Positions 35,040-48,929 of a DNA stretch of 64,000 nt are shown here, piece by piece (position 1 is the first letter of the stretch; every line of letters begins with the position of its first letter). The stretch is taken from NCBI RefSeq assembly GCF_016587415.1, contig NZ_BNJI01000001.1:620001-684000 (forward strand), in the 5' to 3' direction. The notes under the pieces were generated by a model. The model did no database searches, was not told the DNA's origin, and worked only from the letters and a program-made list of their open reading frames with translations. Position numbers and translations under genes: made by a program. The DNA comes from Ktedonobacter sp. SOSP1-85 (GTDB lineage Bacteria; Chloroflexota; Ktedonobacteria; Ktedonobacterales; Ktedonobacteraceae).

Positions 35040-37128
<2,089 letters not shown>

Positions 37129-39198: not shown

Positions 39199-39966
39199 TT
39201 ATGCTGGGCGCACAATCACATTACGCGCATGCAGATATGCCTTGGCGTCGCGTACGCGATACTCGCCAAAGTGGAAGATAGAGGCAGCCAGGACGGCATC
39301 GGCCTCCCCTTCCGTTAAACCAGCATAGAGGTGCTCTAGCGTGCCTACGCCGCCCGAGGCGATTACCGGAACGCTCACCGCGCTCGCGATCTTACGCGTC
39401 AATGCCAGGTCATACCCCTGCTTGGTGCCATCACGATCCATACTTGTCAGCAGGATCTCGCCCGCGCCAAGCTCAACGCCATACTGCGCCCACTCCAGAG
39501 CATCCTTCCCGGTCGGCGTGCGCCCACCATGTACAAAGACCTCGTAGCCGCTGGGCATGGCGGAATTGGCCCGCGCATCAATCGCCAGCACAATACACTG
39601 CGCGCCAAACTGCTCCGCCCCCGCGCGCAAAAGCTCAGGCTTCTGGACCGCGGCAGTGTTCAGCGAGGTCTTGTCGGCGCCGGCACCCAGCGTGGCGCGG
39701 ATATCTTCCACCGTGCGGATACCTCCACCCACTGTGACCGGAATAAAAACCTGCTCGGCGGTACGCCGCACCACATCGAGCATGGTCGCGCGTTGCTCAT
39801 AGGAGGCGGTGATATCGAGGAAGACTACCTCGTCGGCACCCTCGTCGTTATAGAAGGTCGCCAGGGCTACGGGATCGCCCGCGTCACGCAGGTTGACAAA
39901 GTTCACGCCTTTGACGACACGACCATTGGCGACGTCGAGGCAGGGAATAATACGCTTGGTCAACAT
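39199..39966 (-). CDS. hisF: Imidazole glycerol phosphate synthase, cyclase subunit
   Basis: 255 residues, TIM barrel; with HisH makes IGP and AICAR from PRFAR. Start [20 protein letters not shown] with catalytic Asp in [14 protein letters not shown] phosphate loop seen as [30 protein letters not shown] with the second Asp, and [13 protein letters not shown]. Last gene of the his operon, 9 bases after hisA. Confidence 0.97.
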
Positions 39967-39975
39967 AGCCTTTGA

Positions 39976-40698
39976 TCACGCTCCCTTCTCTAACTCGCGT
40001 ACCGCCTGCGCCAGGTCGACCGCGCCGGTATAAATAGCCTTGCCAACAATCGCGCCCTCTACGCCTGACTGTGCCAGTTCGCGCAGGTCCTCAAGTGAGC
40101 TGACTCCGCCCGAGGCGATCAGCGCGCTCTCGGACGCCTGTTGCATCTCGCGCAAGGCGGGCAAATTGGGACCGCTCAGCGCGCCATCGCGCGCGATATC
40201 GGTGTACACAAAGCGCCGCACGCCCAACCTGGACAGTACGCTAGCCAACTCTGTGGCGCGCACCTGCGAGGTCTCGTACCAGCCCGAGACGGCGACAAAG
40301 CCATCACGCGCATCCAGGCCAACCACGATTCGCTCTCCCCAGCGCGCAAGCGCCGCCTCCAGCAGCGCACGATCACGCAGCGCGACCGTGCCCAGAATAA
40401 CACGCTCCACGCCCAGGGCCAGTACCTGCTCAATCTGCTCCAGGCTGCGCATGCCCCCCCCAACCTCGATCTGCAGCGTTGTCTCTCGCCGCATCCGCTG
40501 GATGAGATCGGTATTAACGGGGCGACCCTGGGCCGCGCCATCCAGATCGACGACATGCAACCAGCTCGCACCCGCCTCTTGCCAGCGCTGTGCGACCTGC
40601 ACGGGATCACGGTCATAGGTCGTCACCTGCGCGTAGTCGCCCTGGTAGAGGCGTACACACAGGCCATCTTTGATATCAATCGCGGGAAGAATAATCAT
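39976..40698 (-). CDS. hisA: ProFAR isomerase
   Basis: 240 residues. MIILPAIDIKDGLCVRLYQG with catalytic Asp 8, LQIEVGGGMRSLEQI, YTDIARDGALSGPNL with the second Asp, and LIASGGVSSLEDL. Isomerises ProFAR to PRFAR. ATG 40698 overlaps the hisH stop by 4 bases (ATGA), so translation is coupled; the longer frame to 40782 is within hisH. Confidence 0.96.
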   Translation of the reverse strand: MIILPAIDIKDGLCVRLYQGDYAQVTTYDRDPVQVAQRWQEAGASWLHVVDLDGAAQGRPVNTDLIQRMRRETTLQIEVGGGMRSLEQIEQVLALGVERVILGTVALRDRALLEAALARWGERIVVGLDARDGFVAVSGWYETSQVRATELASVLSRLGVRRFVYTDIARDGALSGPNLPALREMQQASESALIASGGVSSLEDLRELAQSGVEGAIVGKAIYTGAVDLAQAVRELEKGA

Positions 40699-41306
40699 GC
40701 TCGCCTCGTCCAATCCACAAAGTTTTGCAACATACGCAGACCAATCGCGCCACTCTTCTCTGGGTGAAACTGCGTGCCCCAAACCTGCTCAGTGACGATG
40801 ACGGAACAATAGGGCGAGCCATATTCGGTCACGCCTGCGACACCTGCCTGGTCACGTGGTTCCACATAATACGAATGCGCGAAATAGAAATATGCCTCGT
40901 TGGGGATGCCCGCGAAGATGGGCAGGTCCTCGCGCAGTGGTTGGACCTGGTTCCAGCCCATATGCGGAATCTTCGGACCATGAGGAATACGCCGTACCTC
41001 GCCTGGGAAGAGGCCTAAGCCCGCCGTCTCCCCTTCGTCATGGTGCTCGGAGAGAAGTTGCATTCCCAGGCAAATGCCTAAAAATGGCTTGCCCACCCGC
41101 GTGGCTTCGCGAATGGCGTCATCCAGACCGCGCTCGCGCATACACTTCATGGCCGAGCCTCCCGAGCCAACACCAGGCAGGACAACGGCACGCGCCCGCG
41201 AGACCACCGCCGCATCGTCGGTGACACATACCTCGCCCCCAACGTGCTCTAAGGCCTTGGCGATACTGTGAATATTGCCCGCTCCATAGTCAACAATGGC
41301 AATCAT
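40695..41306 (-). CDS. hisH: Imidazole glycerol phosphate synthase, glutaminase subunit
   Basis: 203-residue class I glutamine amidotransferase. MIAIVDYGAGNIHSIAKALE, nucleophile Cys in PFLGICLGMQLLSEH, and the His-Glu pair in GTQFHPEKSGAIG. Supplies ammonia to HisF. GGGAGAGG lies upstream of ATG 41306. It starts 18 bases after the HAD-kinase fusion gene, so it is in the same operon. Confidence 0.96.
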   Translation of the reverse strand: MIAIVDYGAGNIHSIAKALEHVGGEVCVTDDAAVVSRARAVVLPGVGSGGSAMKCMRERGLDDAIREATRVGKPFLGICLGMQLLSEHHDEGETAGLGLFPGEVRRIPHGPKIPHMGWNQVQPLREDLPIFAGIPNEAYFYFAHSYYVEPRDQAGVAGVTEYGSPYCSVIVTEQVWGTQFHPEKSGAIGLRMLQNFVDWTRRA

Positions 41307-41324: not shown

Positions 41325-43673
41325 CTAGCATTCCTGCTCAACCGTCTCCACCAACAGACGCGGCGAGAGTATCTCCGTTTCCTGTCCCAGCGACACAGCA
41401 TAGGTCAATCCCAGCCAGCCAATGAGCGGCGGTAGGCGCTGCCCATCAAAGAGGTTGATTGTTAGCAAGGGGCAGCAGAGCAGCGCAGAGTGCATAATCT
41501 CTTCCCAATTCTCCGGCAAGGCCCCCTGTGAAGAGAGCCAGGCGAGCAATGGTCTCAACAAATGCTCGCGCTTGGTCTGGAGGATGGCCTCGCGTATGGG
41601 TGGGAGCGTGAAATCATATGCGATCTCGATACAGCCTTCCTGCTCATCGACTTTCACCTGCAAGGAGCAGTCCGGCGCGATCTCCCGCGGGAAGTACATC
41701 CAGCTTGCGAAGATATTATGAAAGAGCGGCTTAATAACATCCAGCAATGGCGAGTGTCGACCAGCGAAGGCGGGATCGAAGTAAAGGTATTCGCGCCCCT
41801 CCTCCAGAAAGACGTTGCCAAAGTGGGCATCGCCATGCCCTACCACGGTCAGCCCGGCCTGGGCTGGCTGGAGCACGCTTTTGGCGCGCTCAATCAACTC
41901 ACCCAGCGTCAGGCGCTGCACCTGCCCATTAATACGCCAGCGATAGGTGCAGAGCTGCGCAAAGGTAATTTCACGCTCGGGCTGCGTAGGAAGCAGAAGG
42001 CTCTTCCCCTCGTAGAAGCTGGCCAGGCGTCCCCCAGTCAGGCGATGCCAGAACAGCTGGTGAATGGGGGCCGCCTCGTGCTCCTCGGCGCTCACCGGGG
42101 CCTCTGTCTCCTGGTAAATACGCAAGAGGCGCTCGCACTCCAGTCGCTCAGCGGCGACCAGTTGCTCGAGGGAGGCCGGGGCTGGCTGCTCGGTCTCCAG
42201 CGCACGCATCATGTCGAACATGACCGGCCAGCGAATAACTGGGTAGATGACCATCTGCTGGCCGCTCCTGCGCAATGTGCGCACAGGCAAGACCACGTTA
42301 TAGCCCGCCTCGTGCAGGAGCGTGGCGTTATAGTACTCCGCCAGAACCCCCTGGTCCTCTACATGCGTCTTAAAGAAGTACTCCTCTCCACCAACCCGAT
42401 AGAAACCATTAAATGAATTGAGCGAGACGGCTTTGGGCGTAAGCTGAATGCTGTCGATACGCAGATCCATCTGAACCGCGAACCAGCGTTGTAGGAGTTG
42501 CTCTGCTTTTTCACGCTCGTGAAATTGGAGCCGCTGGATCGTGCCCAGGTCATCGATCTGGCGCACCAGGGCAGGGACATGCGTCACATCCTCTAACAGA
42601 AAGTCGGGAGTGCTCTGCGCAAGCAGTGTCCGTGCCTCCTCAGTTCTGGCCCCGGTTCGGACCGCGAGACAGAAGGCATCTCCCGCGTGCGCCCCTCGCA
42701 CGTCGCTGGTCGTATCTCCAACCACGAGAAAGCTGCCGCGCGGCGGCAGGGGATCACCCGGCATATACTCCGGGAAGGCGGCGCGCAAGAAGGGGAAGGG
42801 ATGCGGCTTGGCCAGGGTCAGGGGTTGTCCCTCTTCCCGCAGGCGCCGCTCCGCCTCCGCCACTTCGGTATGCGTCACGATATGCTCAGCACTAAAGAAA
42901 GTGAGCAGGCCATAGTTACGTAGGGGGGTGAGAGCCTCGAAGCTGCCACGCCCGGTGCAGATGCCCAGGGTATATCCCTGGGCCTGCAAATCCTCAAGCG
43001 TTGAGCGCAACTGTTCAATTGGTAGAAGAGGCTGCTCAAAGTTGATGCAACCAATCTTGCCTGTCTGCCAGGGCGCTCGCCCATAATCCTGCGTGAAGAG
43101 CGCATCGCCCAGGTACCATTCCTGGAAGAGGTCGCGGCAGAACTTCCAGGAGGGGCTATAATGCCCAAGTCCTCCCTCACTCTCGACATTCAAAACCTGG
43201 CGAGCCAGGATATCCAGGCGTGCCAGCAGATCAAAGCCTGTATAACCAGCGAGCGTGGGATCGGTGAGCGGTCGCAGGCGCTCAGGGTCTACCTGGGGAC
43301 GGGCCTGAGCCAGTTGCCCGCGTAAGCGCGCATTCCAGGCGGCATCTTCGACACGCGGTGGCCAGAGGGCGGCGTGGTCGCTCACCTGGGCAAGCACATC
43401 GATCAGGTAGAGGCAGAAAGCGGCATAGCAGGTATCCCAGTTTGAGTTGACAGCTCGTGCCTTTAAGCCCTGAATCAAGGCCTCAGGAAAGACCGCCTCG
43501 CTCCAGGCGCGGTACTCCTCGACTGTCTGGGGTGGTGTGTACTCCGAACGTCCATCCACATTCCAGTAGCGCGGGCTATAGAGCAGTTCATGCAAGACCA
43601 GGCCCGCCGTCGTCCAGTACATCTCCTCGCTGGTAATCACGCCATCCAGATCAAAAATCACTGTTTTTTTCAA
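41325..43673 (-). CDS. HAD phosphatase fused to APH-like kinase domain (in the his operon)
   Basis: 782 residues. Part 1, about 1-360, is a HAD hydrolase: motif I VIFDLDGVITSEEMY (Asp 8 and 10), motif II GICTGRGSFEAL near 238, Lys in LAKPHPFPFL near 284, motif IV VVGDTTSDVRGAHAG near 318, and a large cap between I and II. Part 2, about 390-782, is an aminoglycoside-phosphotransferase/choline-kinase-like fold: Lys in EEYFFKTHVE, Glu in EYYNATLLHEAGY, catalytic loop VVGHGDAHFGNVFLEE near 612 and metal Asp in LYFDPAFAGRHSPLLDVIK. Its ATG overlaps the hisG stop by 4 bases and hisH follows by 18. The HAD half could supply histidinol-phosphatase activity; that is inference, and the kinase substrate is unknown. 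Confidence 0.82.
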   Translation of the reverse strand: MKKTVIFDLDGVITSEEMYWTTAGLVLHELLYSPRYWNVDGRSEYTPPQTVEEYRAWSEAVFPEALIQGLKARAVNSNWDTCYAAFCLYLIDVLAQVSDHAALWPPRVEDAAWNARLRGQLAQARPQVDPERLRPLTDPTLAGYTGFDLLARLDILARQVLNVESEGGLGHYSPSWKFCRDLFQEWYLGDALFTQDYGRAPWQTGKIGCINFEQPLLPIEQLRSTLEDLQAQGYTLGICTGRGSFEALTPLRNYGLLTFFSAEHIVTHTEVAEAERRLREEGQPLTLAKPHPFPFLRAAFPEYMPGDPLPPRGSFLVVGDTTSDVRGAHAGDAFCLAVRTGARTEEARTLLAQSTPDFLLEDVTHVPALVRQIDDLGTIQRLQFHEREKAEQLLQRWFAVQMDLRIDSIQLTPKAVSLNSFNGFYRVGGEEYFFKTHVEDQGVLAEYYNATLLHEAGYNVVLPVRTLRRSGQQMVIYPVIRWPVMFDMMRALETEQPAPASLEQLVAAERLECERLLRIYQETEAPVSAEEHEAAPIHQLFWHRLTGGRLASFYEGKSLLLPTQPEREITFAQLCTYRWRINGQVQRLTLGELIERAKSVLQPAQAGLTVVGHGDAHFGNVFLEEGREYLYFDPAFAGRHSPLLDVIKPLFHNIFASWMYFPREIAPDCSLQVKVDEQEGCIEIAYDFTLPPIREAILQTKREHLLRPLLAWLSSQGALPENWEEIMHSALLCCPLLTINLFDGQRLPPLIGWLGLTYAVSLGQETEILSPRLLVETVEQEC

Positions 43674-44749
43674 GATAACCTCTTCAGCCTTTCCCTGAGT
43701 GCACGCGCATTCACGGATTCCTGCGCGAAGCGATAGGTCAGCGGCGTCACGTTGATATGCGTGGCTCCGGCCTGGCGCAGTACCGCCACCGTTTCCAGCA
43801 GTTGAGGCGCGGCCTCACCGACTTTGGCCACACCCGAGAGCGTGTACTGGTCAGGGGCCGACTCACCATCCAGTTCTGAATTGACCATACGGAACTCGAT
43901 GCCGGCCCCCATGGCCTTCAGGCGCTGGTTGAGCCGTCCACAGGCATCGCGCATCCCCTCAAAGCTCTCTGCGCGCATATAGGCGGTTAGCAGTGAGCGG
44001 TTGCGTGCCTGGTTGCGCGCATCAATCAGCTCCAGGACGGTCTCGGTCAGCTTGAGCGCGAGTGGATGCTGCTTGAGGAGACGCGCATTGCCCATCAAGC
44101 AGGCCTGAGAGCGTAGGATCACGCCATCGTCCAGCAGCTTGAGATGGTTCTCGCGTAGGGTCGTGCCCGTCTCGGTCAGATCCGCGATCAGGTCGGCGGT
44201 GTCGGTCAGCGGAGCAGCCTCTAGCGCGCCATGCGGCGAAAATATCTTGCAGTGCGTAATGTTATGCCGCCGTAGGAACTGCGAGGTCAGCAGGGGATAC
44301 TTGGTGGCGATACGCAGTCCCCGCCCTCGATGTGTGCGATAATACCCTGATAGGTGCCAGAGATCCGCGCAGGAGCTGACATCAATCCAGGTCTCCGGCA
44401 CAGCCAGGACGAGGCGGCAACTCCCATACCCCAGGTCACGCATAAGCACCAGCAGGTCTTCATCCAGGTGATCCTCTTCGTCCAGGTCATCGCCGTAGCC
44501 TCGATGTTCCGCCAGGATATCATAGCCCGAGACCCCCAGGGTCGCGTCGCCACTCTGGACCAGGGCCGGTATATCGGCGGCCCGCTGGAAGACAACCTCC
44601 AGGTCAGGCATGCTTTTGATGCGCGCCAGGTATTGACGCGGATTACTGCGGCTGACCTTCAGGCCGCACTCGGCAAGAAATGACATAGTCGCGCCCTCCA
44701 GGGCTCCCTTCCCTGGCAGGGCTAAACGCACTCGTTCCTGGGCACTCAT
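43670..44749 (-). CDS. hisG: ATP phosphoribosyltransferase
   Basis: First committed step of histidine synthesis, joining ATP and PRPP. 359 residues. MSAQERVRLALPGKGALEGA, SGDATLGVSGYDILAEHRGY, RIATKYPLLTSQFLRRHNI and the PRPP-binding segment APLTDTADLIADLTETGTTL. The C-terminal part after about residue 230 is longer than in short HisG and ends VTPLTYRFAQESVNARALRE, so it may hold a regulatory domain even though a HisZ-like gene is next door. Overlaps the hisZ-like stop by 4 bases. Confidence 0.93.
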   Translation of the reverse strand: MSAQERVRLALPGKGALEGATMSFLAECGLKVSRSNPRQYLARIKSMPDLEVVFQRAADIPALVQSGDATLGVSGYDILAEHRGYGDDLDEEDHLDEDLLVLMRDLGYGSCRLVLAVPETWIDVSSCADLWHLSGYYRTHRGRGLRIATKYPLLTSQFLRRHNITHCKIFSPHGALEAAPLTDTADLIADLTETGTTLRENHLKLLDDGVILRSQACLMGNARLLKQHPLALKLTETVLELIDARNQARNRSLLTAYMRAESFEGMRDACGRLNQRLKAMGAGIEFRMVNSELDGESAPDQYTLSGVAKVGEAAPQLLETVAVLRQAGATHINVTPLTYRFAQESVNARALRERLKRLS

Positions 44750-46278
44750 ACCAACTGCTCCTTCTGCTCTTCACCAAAATCTGCTACCAGGCCATTGGCA
44801 AGCTCGCCAAATGGAAGACGCCACTCGACGCTTGTCTCTAGGTTGCGTACCGTTACCTCGTTCTGCCTGGCTTCATCCTCGCCCACAATCAGCGCCAGAA
44901 GGATCTGCTTCTTAACAGCTTGCTTCAATCCCGCGCCGACACCGTGCCCGCTAATATCCACCTCTACGGGCTGACCCGCCTCGCGTGCGGCTCGTGCCAC
45001 GCGAAGGGCATAGGGAAACTCATTCGCGCTGACTGGAATCACCAGAGCCTGTGTCTGATTTAACACTGGTAGCGTGGCCTGGGGAATGTGCGCGAGTAAG
45101 CGCTCAAGGCCAATGGCGAAGCCACAGGCCGCGATATCGCGCGAACTGCCTACGGCTCGCATGAGGCGATCATAGCGCCCTCCGCCACAGAGCTGAGCAT
45201 CGAAGCCGTCTGCCTCCTGCGCGTGAATCTCGAAGACCAGGCCCGTATAATAACTCACGCCACGCCCAAGCGAGAGGTTCAGCAAGATCTGCTCACTCGG
45301 CACACCACACTGCTCAACAACGGCCACCAGTTGGCGCAACTCGTTGAGGGGGGAGGTGTCGAGACCATAGCGTTCTAGCAGTTCTGCCACTGCCTCAAAG
45401 ACGGCTGGAGGAGGACCCGAGACGGCATGCAGCTCACGCAAAAACTCCAGCGCGTTCAAGATCTGCCGCCGCTGCTCATTGCGTCCCATTTTCCACAAGA
45501 AGCGCTCCACGACCTCGCGCCGTACGTCGTCATCGCCAAAGGAGATGCTGATACCGCTCAGGAGCGACGAGATATAGCGTGCATCTACTCCGCTCAAGAC
45601 CGTGGCTGGCGGCGAAACTTCTGACGCCATCTTGTTCAAGGCCTGGTCCGCGGGATAGAGGCGCTCCAGCCGCTCCTGCGCCAGGCGCTCCCCCTCCTCC
45701 GACCGGCTGATCTGTTCCATCAGGCCAAGCAAGAGGCGGGCCGCGTGGTCATCGAGGTGCAGGCGGTTGATGAAGCCGCTCGCGACGCCCACATGCCCCA
45801 GCTCCAGACGATAACGTGAGATCCCTAGATCGTGGAGAACCTCGCATGCCAACTGGATCATCTCAGCATCCGCGGCCGCTGGCTGACCACCAAAGATTTC
45901 AATGCCGAGCTGCGTATGCTGCCGATAACGGCTGCGTCCTGGGGCCTCATAGCGAAAAATCGGGCCAGCGTACTGAAAACGCTGCGGTAGTCCCTGCTGC
46001 TGATAATGGTCCAGGTACAAACGGCAGATGGAGGCGGTATATTCTGGGCGCAGGCAGAGGTCGCGTTGATGGATACGAAAGGCGTAGAGGTTCTGCCATA
46101 GCTCCTGGCCAAAGCTGGCATGAAAGAGGTCGCTATGCTCTAGCACGGGGGAATCGACATGGGCATAGCCCGCGTGCTCTAACAGCTTGCTTACCTTCTC
46201 GCTTACCCACTGCTGTTGCTGATAGACCTCTGGTAAAAGGTCGTACATACCTCGCAATCGCTCAACGCGCTTCTTCAT
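44746..46278 (-). CDS. hisZ: HisZ-like / histidyl-tRNA synthetase paralogue
   Basis: 510 residues of class II synthetase fold. Motif 2 region: YAGPIFRYEAPGRSRYRQHT then QLGIEIFG; histidine region LSLGRGVSYYTGLVFEIHA, where true HisRS reads RGLDYY; motif 3 CGFAIGLERLLAHI. A C-terminal HGTP-anticodon-like domain is present (ALVIPVSANEFPYALRVARA, VEVDISGHGVGAGLKQA). HisZ proteins, the regulatory subunits of short HisG, usually lack that domain. Position at the head of the his operon argues for HisZ function; a second HisRS cannot be excluded. GGAGAGG precedes ATG 46278. Confidence 0.75.
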   Translation of the reverse strand: MKKRVERLRGMYDLLPEVYQQQQWVSEKVSKLLEHAGYAHVDSPVLEHSDLFHASFGQELWQNLYAFRIHQRDLCLRPEYTASICRLYLDHYQQQGLPQRFQYAGPIFRYEAPGRSRYRQHTQLGIEIFGGQPAAADAEMIQLACEVLHDLGISRYRLELGHVGVASGFINRLHLDDHAARLLLGLMEQISRSEEGERLAQERLERLYPADQALNKMASEVSPPATVLSGVDARYISSLLSGISISFGDDDVRREVVERFLWKMGRNEQRRQILNALEFLRELHAVSGPPPAVFEAVAELLERYGLDTSPLNELRQLVAVVEQCGVPSEQILLNLSLGRGVSYYTGLVFEIHAQEADGFDAQLCGGGRYDRLMRAVGSSRDIAACGFAIGLERLLAHIPQATLPVLNQTQALVIPVSANEFPYALRVARAAREAGQPVEVDISGHGVGAGLKQAVKKQILLALIVGEDEARQNEVTVRNLETSVEWRLPFGELANGLVADFGEEQKEQLV

Positions 46279-46525: not shown

Positions 46526-47395
46526 TTAGCGGATAATCATCGTACCCGCGCCCTGGTCTGTGCAGAGTTCGCGTAGGAGCACATGCGGCTCGCGACCATC
46601 CACGATATGCACACGCGGCACTGCCGCCAGCGCATCCAGGCAGGCCGAAACCTTGGGGATCATGCCACCGCTGATCACGCCCTCGTCGATCAAGCGGCGA
46701 GCCTCGGCATCGCTCAATTCGGAAATCAAGGTTCCATCGGCGCGGCAGATGCCGACCACGTTACTCAAAAAGATCAGCTTCTCCGCGTTTAATGCGCCCG
46801 CCAGGTGCGCGGCGACCAGGTCCGCGTTAATATTGAGGCAGGTGCCATCCGGTCCCTGGCCCAGTGGCGCGATCACCGGAATAAAGCCCTGCTCCAGCAA
46901 GGTATGCACAGAGGATGGATCAATCGACTCCACCTCACCCACAAAGCCCAGGCGCTCATCTAACATACGCGCCTGTACCATATTGCCATCTGTCCCACAC
47001 AGACCCACCGCATTAGCTCCCAACTGCGAGAGCATCAATACCAGGCGCTGATTGACCTGCCCACGCAACACCATGCGTACTACCTCTAAGGTCTCCGCGT
47101 CGGTGACACGCATACCATCCAGGAAACGCGTCGGAATACTAAGCTTCGTCAACCAGTCATTAATATAGGGTCCACCACCATGCACCAGTACAGGAAGCGC
47201 ACCCAGTTGATGTAGCCAGACAATATCCTGCAACACCTCCTGCTGGTGCTCCAGCATACTGCCACCAAGTTTAAACACCAGGATCTTGTCTTTAAGATAG
47301 TTAATATAATTAATTGCTTCGCTTAACACTCTGGCTATAAGATGTTGATCATTGATAATTTCGCCGTCTGGTGTGCGTTCAAACGCTATTGTCAT
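46526..47395 (-). CDS. argB: N-acetylglutamate kinase
   Basis: 289 residues of the amino acid kinase fold; phosphorylates N-acetylglutamate in arginine synthesis. KILVFKLGGSMLEHQQEVLQ with the catalytic Lys, LPVLVHGGGPYINDWLTKL, the NINADLVAAHLAGALNAEKL segment and VISGGMIPKVSACLDAL. ATG 47395 is preceded by GAGGAGGAA, better placed than ATG 47416. It follows argC by 95 bases under the same T-box control. Confidence 0.95.
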   Translation of the reverse strand: MTIAFERTPDGEIINDQHLIARVLSEAINYINYLKDKILVFKLGGSMLEHQQEVLQDIVWLHQLGALPVLVHGGGPYINDWLTKLSIPTRFLDGMRVTDAETLEVVRMVLRGQVNQRLVLMLSQLGANAVGLCGTDGNMVQARMLDERLGFVGEVESIDPSSVHTLLEQGFIPVIAPLGQGPDGTCLNINADLVAAHLAGALNAEKLIFLSNVVGICRADGTLISELSDAEARRLIDEGVISGGMIPKVSACLDALAAVPRVHIVDGREPHVLLRELCTDQGAGTMIIR

Positions 47396-47490
47396 CGTTT
47401 CTATGTTCCTCCTCACTCTACATCATGTGCTCCGAGACTCGCGGGTTACACACAACAGTAGAGGGATCACATTGCATACATTTTTTCAGA

Positions 47491-48558
47491 CTAGGGATTG
47501 ACGCCAGCCCCTGCCAGGCCCAGACTCTCGGGCCAACCAAGCATACAGTTCGCGTTCTGAATGGCCTGACCCACCGCGCCTTTAACCAGGTTATCGGTGC
47601 AGGACATTATAATCAGGCGTCCCGTTCGGGCATCAAGTGTTGGATAGATAAAACAATGATTGCTACCATAGGCCCACTTGGTATGAGGTGGCTGATCCAC
47701 TACATGCACAAAAGGCTCGCCTGCATAATACTCGCGATACAACTCCACGATAGCCTCTGACGAGAGGCTCTCTACAGCGCTTGGCGCAAGCGTGGCATAG
47801 CAAGTCGCCAGGATGCCCCGCGTCATGGGTACCAGGTGCGGCAAGAATGTCATGCGGATATCGGAGAGTGCATGTCCGCCATCCCTGGCAGCAGCGAGCA
47901 ACTCTTGCTTGATCTCGGGCATATGTCGATGACCGCCTACACTATAGGGACTCATATCTTCGTTCGCCTCGGCAAAATGTGTCCCCAGCGTCAAGCCACG
48001 GCCCGCGCCACTAATGCCCGTTTTCGAGTCCACGATGACGTCTGGCTCTACAATGCCCCGGGCAAAAGCGGGTAGAAGGGCAAGAATGGCGGTGGTTGAG
48101 TGGCAACCGGGACTGGCGACGAGGCTAGCCCCTGCGATCCGCTCACGATAGCGCTCACAGAGACCAAAGACCGCGCTTTCGAGCAAGGCTGGAGCAGGAT
48201 GGGTATGCTTATACCATTCTTCATACACCGCCACATCATGCAGGCGGAAGTCCGCTGAGAGATCGACGACCTTTGTGCCGCGCTCAAGCAGGCGTACGAC
48301 CGCCTCTGCGGCGGCGGCATGGGGCAAGCAGACAAACGCCAGGTCTGTCTGTGCTGGTTCCTCCGCGATCACCATCGTTGGATCAATCGCGGTCGTGGCT
48401 GCAAGGGCCTGTAGTTGTGGGAAGACATCTACCAGCGTCTTGCCCGCCAGGCTGCGTGCGGTGACGGAGGTAACCTTTAATTGAGGATGCTGCGCAAGCA
48501 GGCGCAAGAGTTCCAGGCCGGTATAACTAGTAACGTTAATAATAGCGGTAGAAATCAT
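47491..48558 (-). CDS. argC: N-acetyl-gamma-glutamyl-phosphate reductase
   Basis: 355 residues; NADPH-dependent third step of arginine synthesis. N-terminal Rossmann segment MISTAIINVTSYTGLELLRL, LSADFRLHDVAVYEEWY, catalytic Cys in LVASPGCHSTTAILALLP (near 150), and GGHRHMPEIKQELLAAA. ATG 48558 follows GGGGG; the frame extends up to 48732 but that part is the T-box leader. First gene of argC-argB. Confidence 0.96.
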   Translation of the reverse strand: MISTAIINVTSYTGLELLRLLAQHPQLKVTSVTARSLAGKTLVDVFPQLQALAATTAIDPTMVIAEEPAQTDLAFVCLPHAAAAEAVVRLLERGTKVVDLSADFRLHDVAVYEEWYKHTHPAPALLESAVFGLCERYRERIAGASLVASPGCHSTTAILALLPAFARGIVEPDVIVDSKTGISGAGRGLTLGTHFAEANEDMSPYSVGGHRHMPEIKQELLAAARDGGHALSDIRMTFLPHLVPMTRGILATCYATLAPSAVESLSSEAIVELYREYYAGEPFVHVVDQPPHTKWAYGSNHCFIYPTLDARTGRLIIMSCTDNLVKGAVGQAIQNANCMLGWPESLGLAGAGVNP

Positions 48559-48590
48559 TATCTGGCCCCCAAGAGTTAAGATATTGGAAC

Positions 48591-48929
48591 AAAAAAAACC
48601 CTCATCCCTATCATTTGATACAGGGACGAGAGCTACAGCCTGGCTCCCGCGGTGCCACCCAGTTTGCCTTTCCTCAATTGAGAGCAAAGACCACTCATTT
48701 CGACTCAAAAAACTTACGTGTGAGCCGCACACCCGGCGTACTTATCGTCTCGAGACGATTTTCTTCCGCCAGCCGCTCGCGGACGCGTTCTGAGGGCTAC
48801 TCCATTCCGACCTTGCACTGGACGTCGGATCGCTGTCTGGCTCCGCACCTCATACTTCTTCCGGTCATCACGGGCAGAAAACACTATACTACTGAGAGAA
48901 TACGAGGATCTTCAGTTTATGTTCTATTA
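48591..48929 (-). promoter_or_regulatory. T-box riboswitch (tRNA-sensing leader), probably tRNA-Arg
   Basis: Minus strand carries the T-box sequence AACTGGGTGGCACCGCGG (48647-48664), followed by a terminator stem CTCGTCCCTGTATC with GATAGGGATGAG (48599-48631) and an eight-U run (48591-48598). Stem I is visible: CGGA-AGAAGTA-TGAGG on the 5' side and CCTCA-GAACGCG-TCCG on the 3' side, with distal stem CCGAC/GTCGG. The specifier loop GAACGCG allows the codon CGC (48785-48787), an Arg codon, matching the argC-argB genes. Uncharged tRNA would stabilise the antiterminator. Confidence 0.88.

Follow-up and report, generated by a model that had tools for sequence, protein, structure and literature searches.

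The window, i.e. the whole stretch of 64 kb that was analysed, contains a histidine (his) operon on the minus strand, in which a single frame of 782 amino acids, running from 43673 to 41325 and starting with TTG, encodes a HAD phosphatase joined to a kinase of the APH fold. The fusion gene starts on the stop codon of hisG, with which it overlaps by the four bases TTGA, and the ATG of hisH (41306) lies 18 bases past the fusion stop and is preceded by AAGGGAGAGG; the mechanical list of open reading frames places the hisH start elsewhere, at a GTG (41315). A first-pass annotation of the same DNA had described this arrangement, and it was confirmed from the sequence, as was the lack of hisB, hisC, hisD and hisI, none of which was found in the 64-kb window by tblastn (1e-3). 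The features of the locus are the following:

46526..48732, minus strand: argB and argC, which lie upstream of the his genes (assigned by eye from the sequence; synteny in relatives)
44746..46278, minus strand: hisZ-like gene, histidyl-tRNA synthetase-like, anticodon-binding domain retained (domain and family searches)
43670..44749, minus strand: hisG, ATP phosphoribosyltransferase (TIGR00070, 184 bits)
41325..43673, minus strand: HAD-kinase fusion gene, 782 amino acids, proposed HisB replacement (TTG start; homologue search; genome distribution)
42558..43673, minus strand: HAD half, residues 1-372, 1qyi family, proposed histidinol-phosphate phosphatase (phmmer, Foldseek, invariant motifs)
43638..43652, minus strand: HAD motif I, DLDGV, residues 8-12 (alignment)
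41325..42557, minus strand: kinase half (APH fold), residues 373-782, putative ATP-driven IGP dehydratase
41814..41837, minus strand: kinase catalytic loop HGDAHFGN, residues 613-620 (alignment)
40695..41306, minus strand: hisH (TIGR01855, 223.6 bits)
39976..40782, minus strand: hisA, frame counted from the earliest possible start codon; translation probably begins further inside (TIGR00007, 278 bits)
39199..39966, minus strand: hisF (TIGR00735, 374 bits)

The best 120 of 461 homologues are 93-56% identical to the fusion across 96-100% of its length, and the frame is therefore not a chance open reading frame. Homologues lying mostly outside his operons would, according to the first-pass annotation, have spoken against a role in histidine synthesis; those of the full fusion were found in his loci. 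A plus-strand frame of 284 amino acids within the fusion gene (41562-42416) was taken as a shadow frame.

The two halves of the fusion protein

A Pfam scan of the fusion protein (E <= 1e-3) returned three HAD families only, with the HAD half above the Pfam threshold, and no match to PF00475, the domain of imidazole glycerol phosphate (IGP) dehydratase (IGPD). Residues 3-361 align with the PDB entry 1qyi (phmmer, E 1.2e-35), i.e. the homology is near full-length, and the Foldseek comparison gave a TM score of 0.82 normalised to 1qyi. The HAD half possesses the DxD, T/S, K and D motifs and the Rossmann-like core of the HAD superfamily, and residues D8, D10, T240, K289, D320 and D324 do not vary among the 38 HAD homologues from the best 80 of 141 kinase loci. 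NCBIfam matches of five HAD-only relatives were all under the cut-off, a search of viral contigs with the HAD half gave two pattern matches, none of which was confirmed, and no function paper for 1qyi was among the matches listed in a literature search. A published survey describes a HAD protein, SerB4, which adjoins serA in Brevibacillus and Staphylococcus and was proposed to be a phosphoserine phosphatase (PMC9026213). Judging from the shared genera, SerB4 probably belongs to the same family as the 1qyi-type HAD half, and phosphoserine may be what the HAD relatives in Firmicutes hydrolyse, as the survey proposes for SerB4 (PMC9026213). Phosphoserine, like histidinol phosphate, is a 2-aminoalkyl phosphate, so that a shift in specificity is easily imagined.

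The kinase half of the window protein reaches 17.5 bits against the Pfam APH family PF01636, which is under the gathering cut-off of 23.2. An APH match at E <= 0.1 was obtained for 19 of 23 members of the kinase-family alignment and for none of the other four, and NCBIfam gave weak matches only. The AlphaFold model of the kinase half aligns with PsiK, methylthioribose kinase and APH(9), pointing to a bilobal kinase fold. A profile search of genome contigs with the kinase alignment yielded 141 confirmed loci, of which the best 80 were used. In this set of 80, H613, D615, N620 and D633 are invariant in all kinases, and K435 and E446 are invariant in the 79 kinases covering these positions; we take their roles (catalytic residues, ATP-site Lys and Glu, metal-binding Asp) from those in the APH family. 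With its HGDxHxxN loop, the ATP-site Lys/Glu, the metal Asp and a bilobal fold in the model, the kinase half is predicted to be an APH-fold kinase, and its catalytic residues are intact. Beyond this kinase set, H437, R544, R549, H617, H640, D645, K648, H652, C733 and C734 are present in every homologue covering them, and H543 is conserved in 79 of 80 kinases (best 80 of 141 loci). These additional residues could grip the phosphate of the substrate and serve as acid and base.

For the kinase half, a function as an antibiotic-resistance APH was rejected, as its family is linked to his genes and the identity in the fold matches to APHs is only 10-16%. TvaE, which is among the Foldseek matches, was dropped as a kinase precedent, since kinase-fold cyclases are described in RiPPs (PMC12291118).

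Distribution of the kinase and of IGP dehydratase

Among 47 genomes of the class Ktedonobacteria, the fusion or its halves were found in 27 of the 29 Ktedonobacteraceae genomes, and the other 18 genomes had none; an additional match, in G014, is a 20-bit fragment. HAD and kinase are encoded by two overlapping frames in Dictyobacter kobayashii (G025, L038), and by separate contigs in G031. PF00475 had no match in the window genome (G000) or in any of the 29 Ktedonobacteraceae genomes, and it is absent in 45 of the 47 Ktedonobacteria genomes. hisD was detected in 28 of the 29 Ktedonobacteraceae genomes, the exception being a genome of 76% completeness (G045). The only class genomes with IGPD are G001 and G002, which are of the same order; both possess hisD and neither has the fusion. 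In both, hisB directly precedes hisH (hisH read from the sequence) and thereby occupies the slot of the fusion, and in G001 hisB is fused to hisD. The remaining 16 class genomes outside the Ktedonobacteraceae have neither hisD nor IGPD, which is consistent with loss of the pathway; these are presumably auxotrophs. Two Ktedonobacteraceae genomes, G019 and G020, have hisD, and both the fusion and IGPD are missing. The operon of G020 is cut, with a short hisF remnant, hisI and hisD left at the operon locus, and hisD of G019 lies on a contig of 4.4 kb, a fragment too short to judge the locus.

The first-pass annotation had raised the question of whether the fusion always sits between hisG and hisH. 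Among the 25 Ktedonobacteraceae-type loci in the best 80 of 141, at least one of the two genes is near the kinase in every case (hisG in 18, hisH in 23), but both are present in only 16. hisH comes after the fusion in 23 of these 25 loci, one of which (L063) begins inside the kinase, and in six loci of the Dictyobacter type the upstream place of hisG is taken by argB. The Ktedonobacteraceae loci show hisH, hisA and hisF and often hisZ, hisG and hisI; hisI is present in 15 of the 25 loci (best 80 of 141), yet not in the window. These observations argue against an explanation by passenger genes, with a phosphoserine phosphatase as the HAD half and a small-amino-alcohol kinase as the kinase half, in the operon of histidine auxotrophs. 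This explanation appears highly improbable: hisD is kept in 28 of 29 Ktedonobacteraceae genomes along with the his genes of the loci, whereas the 16 IGPD-less class genomes outside the family, the presumed auxotrophs, have also lost hisD. Furthermore, several carriers of the kinase are cyanobacteria, which are normally photoautotrophs, and the linkage found is to his genes. The matches listed in a literature search on the growth of such bacteria in defined medium added no usable information.

Of the best 80 of 141 loci, 55 lie outside the Ktedonobacteraceae and were grouped by their record titles into 21 cyanobacterial loci, 33 loci of other Chloroflexota and one from a bin labelled Micromonosporaceae (L075 and L076 represent one genome). 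In the 21 cyanobacterial loci, hisD lies at most 500 bases upstream of the kinase in 13, a HAD gene at most 700 bases downstream in 12 (17 have at least 1.8 kb of downstream sequence), and hisC follows the HAD gene in 11, i.e. in 11 of the 12 loci with HAD (best 80 of 141 loci). The full order hisD-kinase-HAD-hisC is found in L068, L070, L072, L080 and L089, and with a wider gap in L102. In the 33 loci of other Chloroflexota, hisD is located within 500 bases upstream of the kinase in 29 and hisG is present in 25, usually convergent and followed by hisZ, but a HAD gene was found in only two, although 28 have at least 1.8 kb of downstream sequence (best 80 of 141). No IGPD-like sequence was detected in any of the 55 loci (best 80 of 141). 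With the queries used, no his gene was found near the kinase in L111, L114 and L117, and only a distant one in L113 and L122. Clustering of 518 neighbouring frames from the same 55 loci placed the kinase in 54, hisD in 40, hisG in 24, hisZ in 23 and a HAD/hisC cluster in 16 loci, and the two most frequent neighbour families without annotation were present in 21 and 20 loci. These neighbour counts outside the Ktedonobacteraceae identify the kinase, not the HAD protein, as the constant companion of hisD.

The kinase tree shows about three large clades, one of Ktedonobacteraceae and one of Cyanobacteria, with the other Chloroflexota beside them. Elsewhere in the phylum the kinase is scarce: outside the Ktedonobacteraceae, it was found in one of the 371 Chloroflexota genomes sampled. 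The cyanobacterial carriers in the tree belong to the Coleofasciculaceae, Acaryochloridaceae, Xenococcaceae, Gomontiellaceae, Prochloraceae, Microcoleaceae, Pseudanabaenaceae and Cyanothecaceae, and the gene set could have spread among them by cassette transfer.

The gene context also bears on the role of histidinol-phosphate phosphatase that the first-pass annotation suggested for the HAD half. This assignment is likely in view of the adjacent hisC and hisD genes, including the HAD-hisC order in 11 of 21 cyanobacterial loci (best 80 of 141), but weak matches to the other phosphatase types remain. In G000, the best matches to HisN (TIGR02067) reach 148, 131 and 67 bits against a cut-off of 275, and those to the PHP type (TIGR01856) reach 62 and 44 bits against a cut-off of 90. 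The search for other histidinol phosphatases, which had been proposed as a check and covered the HisN and PHP types, thus gave only matches under the cut-offs; however, these cut-offs are strict and were passed by only 2 (TIGR02067) and 6 (TIGR01856) of 14 control genomes, so that one of the weak HisN-like or PHP-like proteins of G000 could act as histidinol-phosphate phosphatase instead.

Kinase and IGPD exclude each other almost completely. To count genomes, 50 of the 55 outside loci were taken as genomes (L074, L076, L098, L112 and L116 were left out), and IGPD is absent in 49 of these 50 genomes with a stand-alone kinase (from the best 80 of 141 loci); the sole exception with both is Pseudanabaena lw0831 (G077). 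As background, IGPD was found in 363 of 388 genomes of Cyanobacteriia and in 283 of 400 genomes of Chloroflexota. In the control searches, B. subtilis was missed with both PF00475 and PF00815 (HisD); either the genome used has no his operon or the first search overlooked it. Many of the listed negatives in a sample of the whole phylum Cyanobacteriota (IGPD in 97 of 194) are small, presumably non-photosynthetic genomes, and the class sample was therefore used as the background. One of the 19 cyanobacterial carriers tested has IGPD (Fisher p about 1e-18 against the class sample, a few genomes being common to both samples), and among the 400 Chloroflexota, 28 have the kinase, 283 have IGPD, none has both compared to 19.8 expected (hypergeometric 9e-17) and 89 have neither; both p-values ignore relatedness, a single family accounts for 27 of the 28 kinase-positive Chloroflexota, and, because the carriers form few clades, the genomes cannot be counted as independent. 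The Cyanobacteriia sample includes at least five carriers, four of which are IGPD-less, the fifth being the Pseudanabaena exception; 25 genomes of this sample lack IGPD, and 4 of the 20 that are listed are known kinase carriers. The loss of hisB as an artefact of the window or the assembly was rejected in view of its absence in 29 of 29 Ktedonobacteraceae genomes and 49 of 50 other carriers (from the best 80 of 141 loci). Likewise, a low sensitivity of the IGPD search was rejected, as the search recovers IGPD in the background numbers given above.

Proposed function of the kinase-HAD pair

Taken together, the kinase-HAD pair likely belongs to histidine synthesis and stands in for HisB. The first-pass annotation could name no described pathway step for which both halves are needed; the genome comparison offers one, namely the two jobs of HisB, of which IGP dehydration has no gene that could be recognised in these genomes. 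To our knowledge, IGP dehydratase is represented by a single enzyme family, and no described alternative was among the matches listed in searches of the open-access PMC literature. For the histidinol-phosphate phosphatase step, three unrelated families are known (PMC5516325). Because the phosphatase step has three families and no second dehydratase was found described, the dehydratase should be the part that tracks the absence of IGPD, i.e. the kinase. The presence of HAD in only 2 of 33 loci of other Chloroflexota (best 80 of 141) fits this assignment, with the kinase filling the one-family step and HAD the three-family step.

We therefore regard it as probable that the kinase half dehydrates IGP by phosphorylation and elimination and that the HAD half performs the phosphatase step. 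In the mechanism we infer, the APH-fold site would use ATP to phosphorylate the IGP hydroxyl beside the imidazole ring. A ring nitrogen would then push the phosphate out, which by chemical reasoning is expected to leave easily, and the active site that phosphorylates would also carry out the elimination. The adjacent C-H would then be lost to give the enol, which would turn into the ketone imidazole acetol phosphate, the substrate of HisC. HisC would form histidinol phosphate, from which the HAD half would remove the phosphate, and HisD would complete the pathway. The HisB dehydratase is described as dependent on two manganese ions (PMC10978614); the kinase route would arrive at the same product without them. 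The lack of a separate lyase domain in the fusion counts against this proposal. Other points against it are the Pseudanabaena genome with both kinase and IGPD, the five loci with a distant his gene or none, the presence of hisD in G019 and G020, the small share of known carriers among the listed IGPD-less Cyanobacteriia, the 89 Chloroflexota with neither kinase nor IGPD, the few clades of carriers, the weak HisN-like and PHP-like matches in G000, the possible phosphoserine phosphatases among the HAD relatives and the B. subtilis control that was missed.

Two other explanations retain a role in histidine synthesis. According to the first, the HAD half alone serves the pathway as a phosphatase, the kinase has a function in control or the repair of side products, and an unrelated enzyme encoded elsewhere dehydrates IGP. 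The position of hisC behind HAD in 11 of 21 cyanobacterial loci (best 80 of 141) would agree with this, and a biochemically demonstrated IGPD replacement was not found in the open-access literature. We consider this explanation unlikely, since in other Chloroflexota the kinase has an adjacent hisD in 29 of 33 loci and HAD in 2 of 33 (best 80 of 141), the kinase tracks the absence of IGPD in 49 of 50 genomes (from the best 80 of 141 loci), and hisD adjoins the kinase in 40 of 55 loci, whereas no unannotated family exceeds 21 or, for the second most frequent, 20 loci. Still less probable is a joint processing of IGP by kinase and HAD, e.g. by way of imidazole glycerol, which would be formed by dephosphorylation, rearranged and phosphorylated again ahead of the HisC step. 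The two activities do occur together, as a fusion or as neighbours in Ktedonobacteraceae and as neighbours in 12 of 21 cyanobacterial loci (best 80 of 141); however, 31 of 33 loci of other Chloroflexota showed no HAD close to the kinase (best 80 of 141; locus only), and such a route would still require a further dehydratase.

The dehydration of IGP by the kinase would also fill a published gap. HisB was reported in 2019 to be missing from the sponge symbiont Hormoscilla and perhaps to be replaced by an undiscovered dehydratase (PMC6520454). GUM202, a Hormoscilla genome of that study, is by its record title one of the kinase carriers, and its loci L075 and L076 hold kinase-HAD-hisC, which makes the kinase family a concrete candidate for the missing dehydratase. 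If this is true, the HisB gap reported for Hormoscilla (PMC6520454) would be filled, and pathway prediction would change, because genomes without hisB can be classed as auxotrophic, which was done in that study. Carriers of the kinase would be predicted to be naturally insensitive to IGPD inhibitors. In more general terms, a kinase would have been recruited as a dehydratase in primary metabolism, and an enzyme would have been replaced by one that differs in fold and spends energy on its reaction. The overall proposal, which appears reasonably probable, is that an ATP-spending APH-fold kinase constitutes a second, unrelated family of IGP dehydratases and replaces the manganese-dependent HisB in Ktedonobacteraceae, some other Chloroflexota and scattered Cyanobacteria. 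Fused to HAD, the kinase would make up a HisB of independent assembly, a single chain that covers both jobs in the order known from HisB, and HisB-less "auxotrophs" such as Hormoscilla would be prototrophs.

Comparison with known systems

The HAD and APH folds are both already known, and the novelty would lie in the proposed function. The closest counterpart is the HisB protein of E. coli, in which a HAD histidinol phosphatase is joined to IGP dehydratase (PMC5516325). Like this protein, the fusion has an N-terminal HAD domain and a second, C-terminal activity, occupies the slot before hisH and is predicted to do the same two jobs in the pathway. In contrast to E. coli-type HisB, its C-terminal domain is an APH-fold kinase instead of the di-manganese IGPD fold, its HAD domain belongs to the 1qyi family, and the fusion would consume ATP. 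The HAD half resembles the 1qyi family (S. aureus Q8NW41) in sequence (E 1.2e-35) and fold, and 2-aminoalkyl phosphates are plausible shared substrates; however, it is joined to a kinase and located in his operons, whereas the HAD-only relatives in Firmicutes are stand-alone proteins. The kinase half shares only 9-15% identity with PsiK, 5-methylthioribose kinase, homoserine kinase and APH(9)-Ia. It differs from these small-molecule APH-fold kinases in forming its own family of about 400 amino acids, which is tied to his genes and has additional conserved His, Arg, Lys and Cys residues, and in its proposed role in dehydration. A chemical parallel is provided by the class V lanthipeptide kinase CaoK and by LanM. 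The APH-like CaoK is described to phosphorylate Ser/Thr hydroxyl groups for dehydration with the help of a distinct lyase; LanM carries out the elimination in its kinase site (PMC9486802). In both systems, as proposed here for the kinase half, a kinase activates a hydroxyl group for phosphate elimination; unlike the kinase half, CaoK acts on a peptide substrate in a RiPP pathway and requires the separate lyase CaoY.

The his operon of the window and its surroundings

44746-46278, minus strand: hisZ-like gene, in the his operon
46526-48732, minus strand: argC and argB, directly upstream of the his genes
35040-36821, minus strand: gene for a secreted, GH5-type cellulase-like protein

The hisZ-like protein retains the C-terminal anticodon-binding domain; it scores 300 bits with the hisS model, which is over the cut-off of 286.75, and 263 bits with the hisZ model, which is under the cut-off of 271.65. 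Judged by these features, the gene may encode either an unusual full-length HisZ or an operon copy of histidyl-tRNA synthetase. The position of argC and argB upstream of the his genes is the same in most Ktedonobacteraceae loci extending that far, and this retained layout suggests a joint arg-his operon. Elsewhere in the window, the product of 35040-36821, judged from its sequence, is a putative secreted GH5-type cellulase; it has a Pro/Thr linker, and one end looks like a carbohydrate-binding region.

Split and reduced his loci within the family

In Dictyobacter kobayashii (locus L038), the HAD phosphatase-kinase fusion is encoded in two overlapping frames (HAD, 425 aa; kinase, 366 aa), which also appear as two separate proteins in the protein set; the split is due to either a frameshift or a fission. 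In another family member (genome G020, locus L175), the operon is reduced to a hisF remnant, hisI and hisD, with unrelated genes adjoining, an apparent decay of the his pathway.

Kinase loci outside the family

A bin labelled Micromonosporaceae carries the order hisZ...hisC-hisD-kinase (L101), which reflects either a transfer into an actinomycete or a mislabelled bin. Pseudanabaena lw0831 (G077; L102, L178) possesses both a hisD-kinase-HAD-hisC cluster and a normal imidazole glycerol phosphate dehydratase, which would point to either recent gene acquisition or an assembly of mixed origin.
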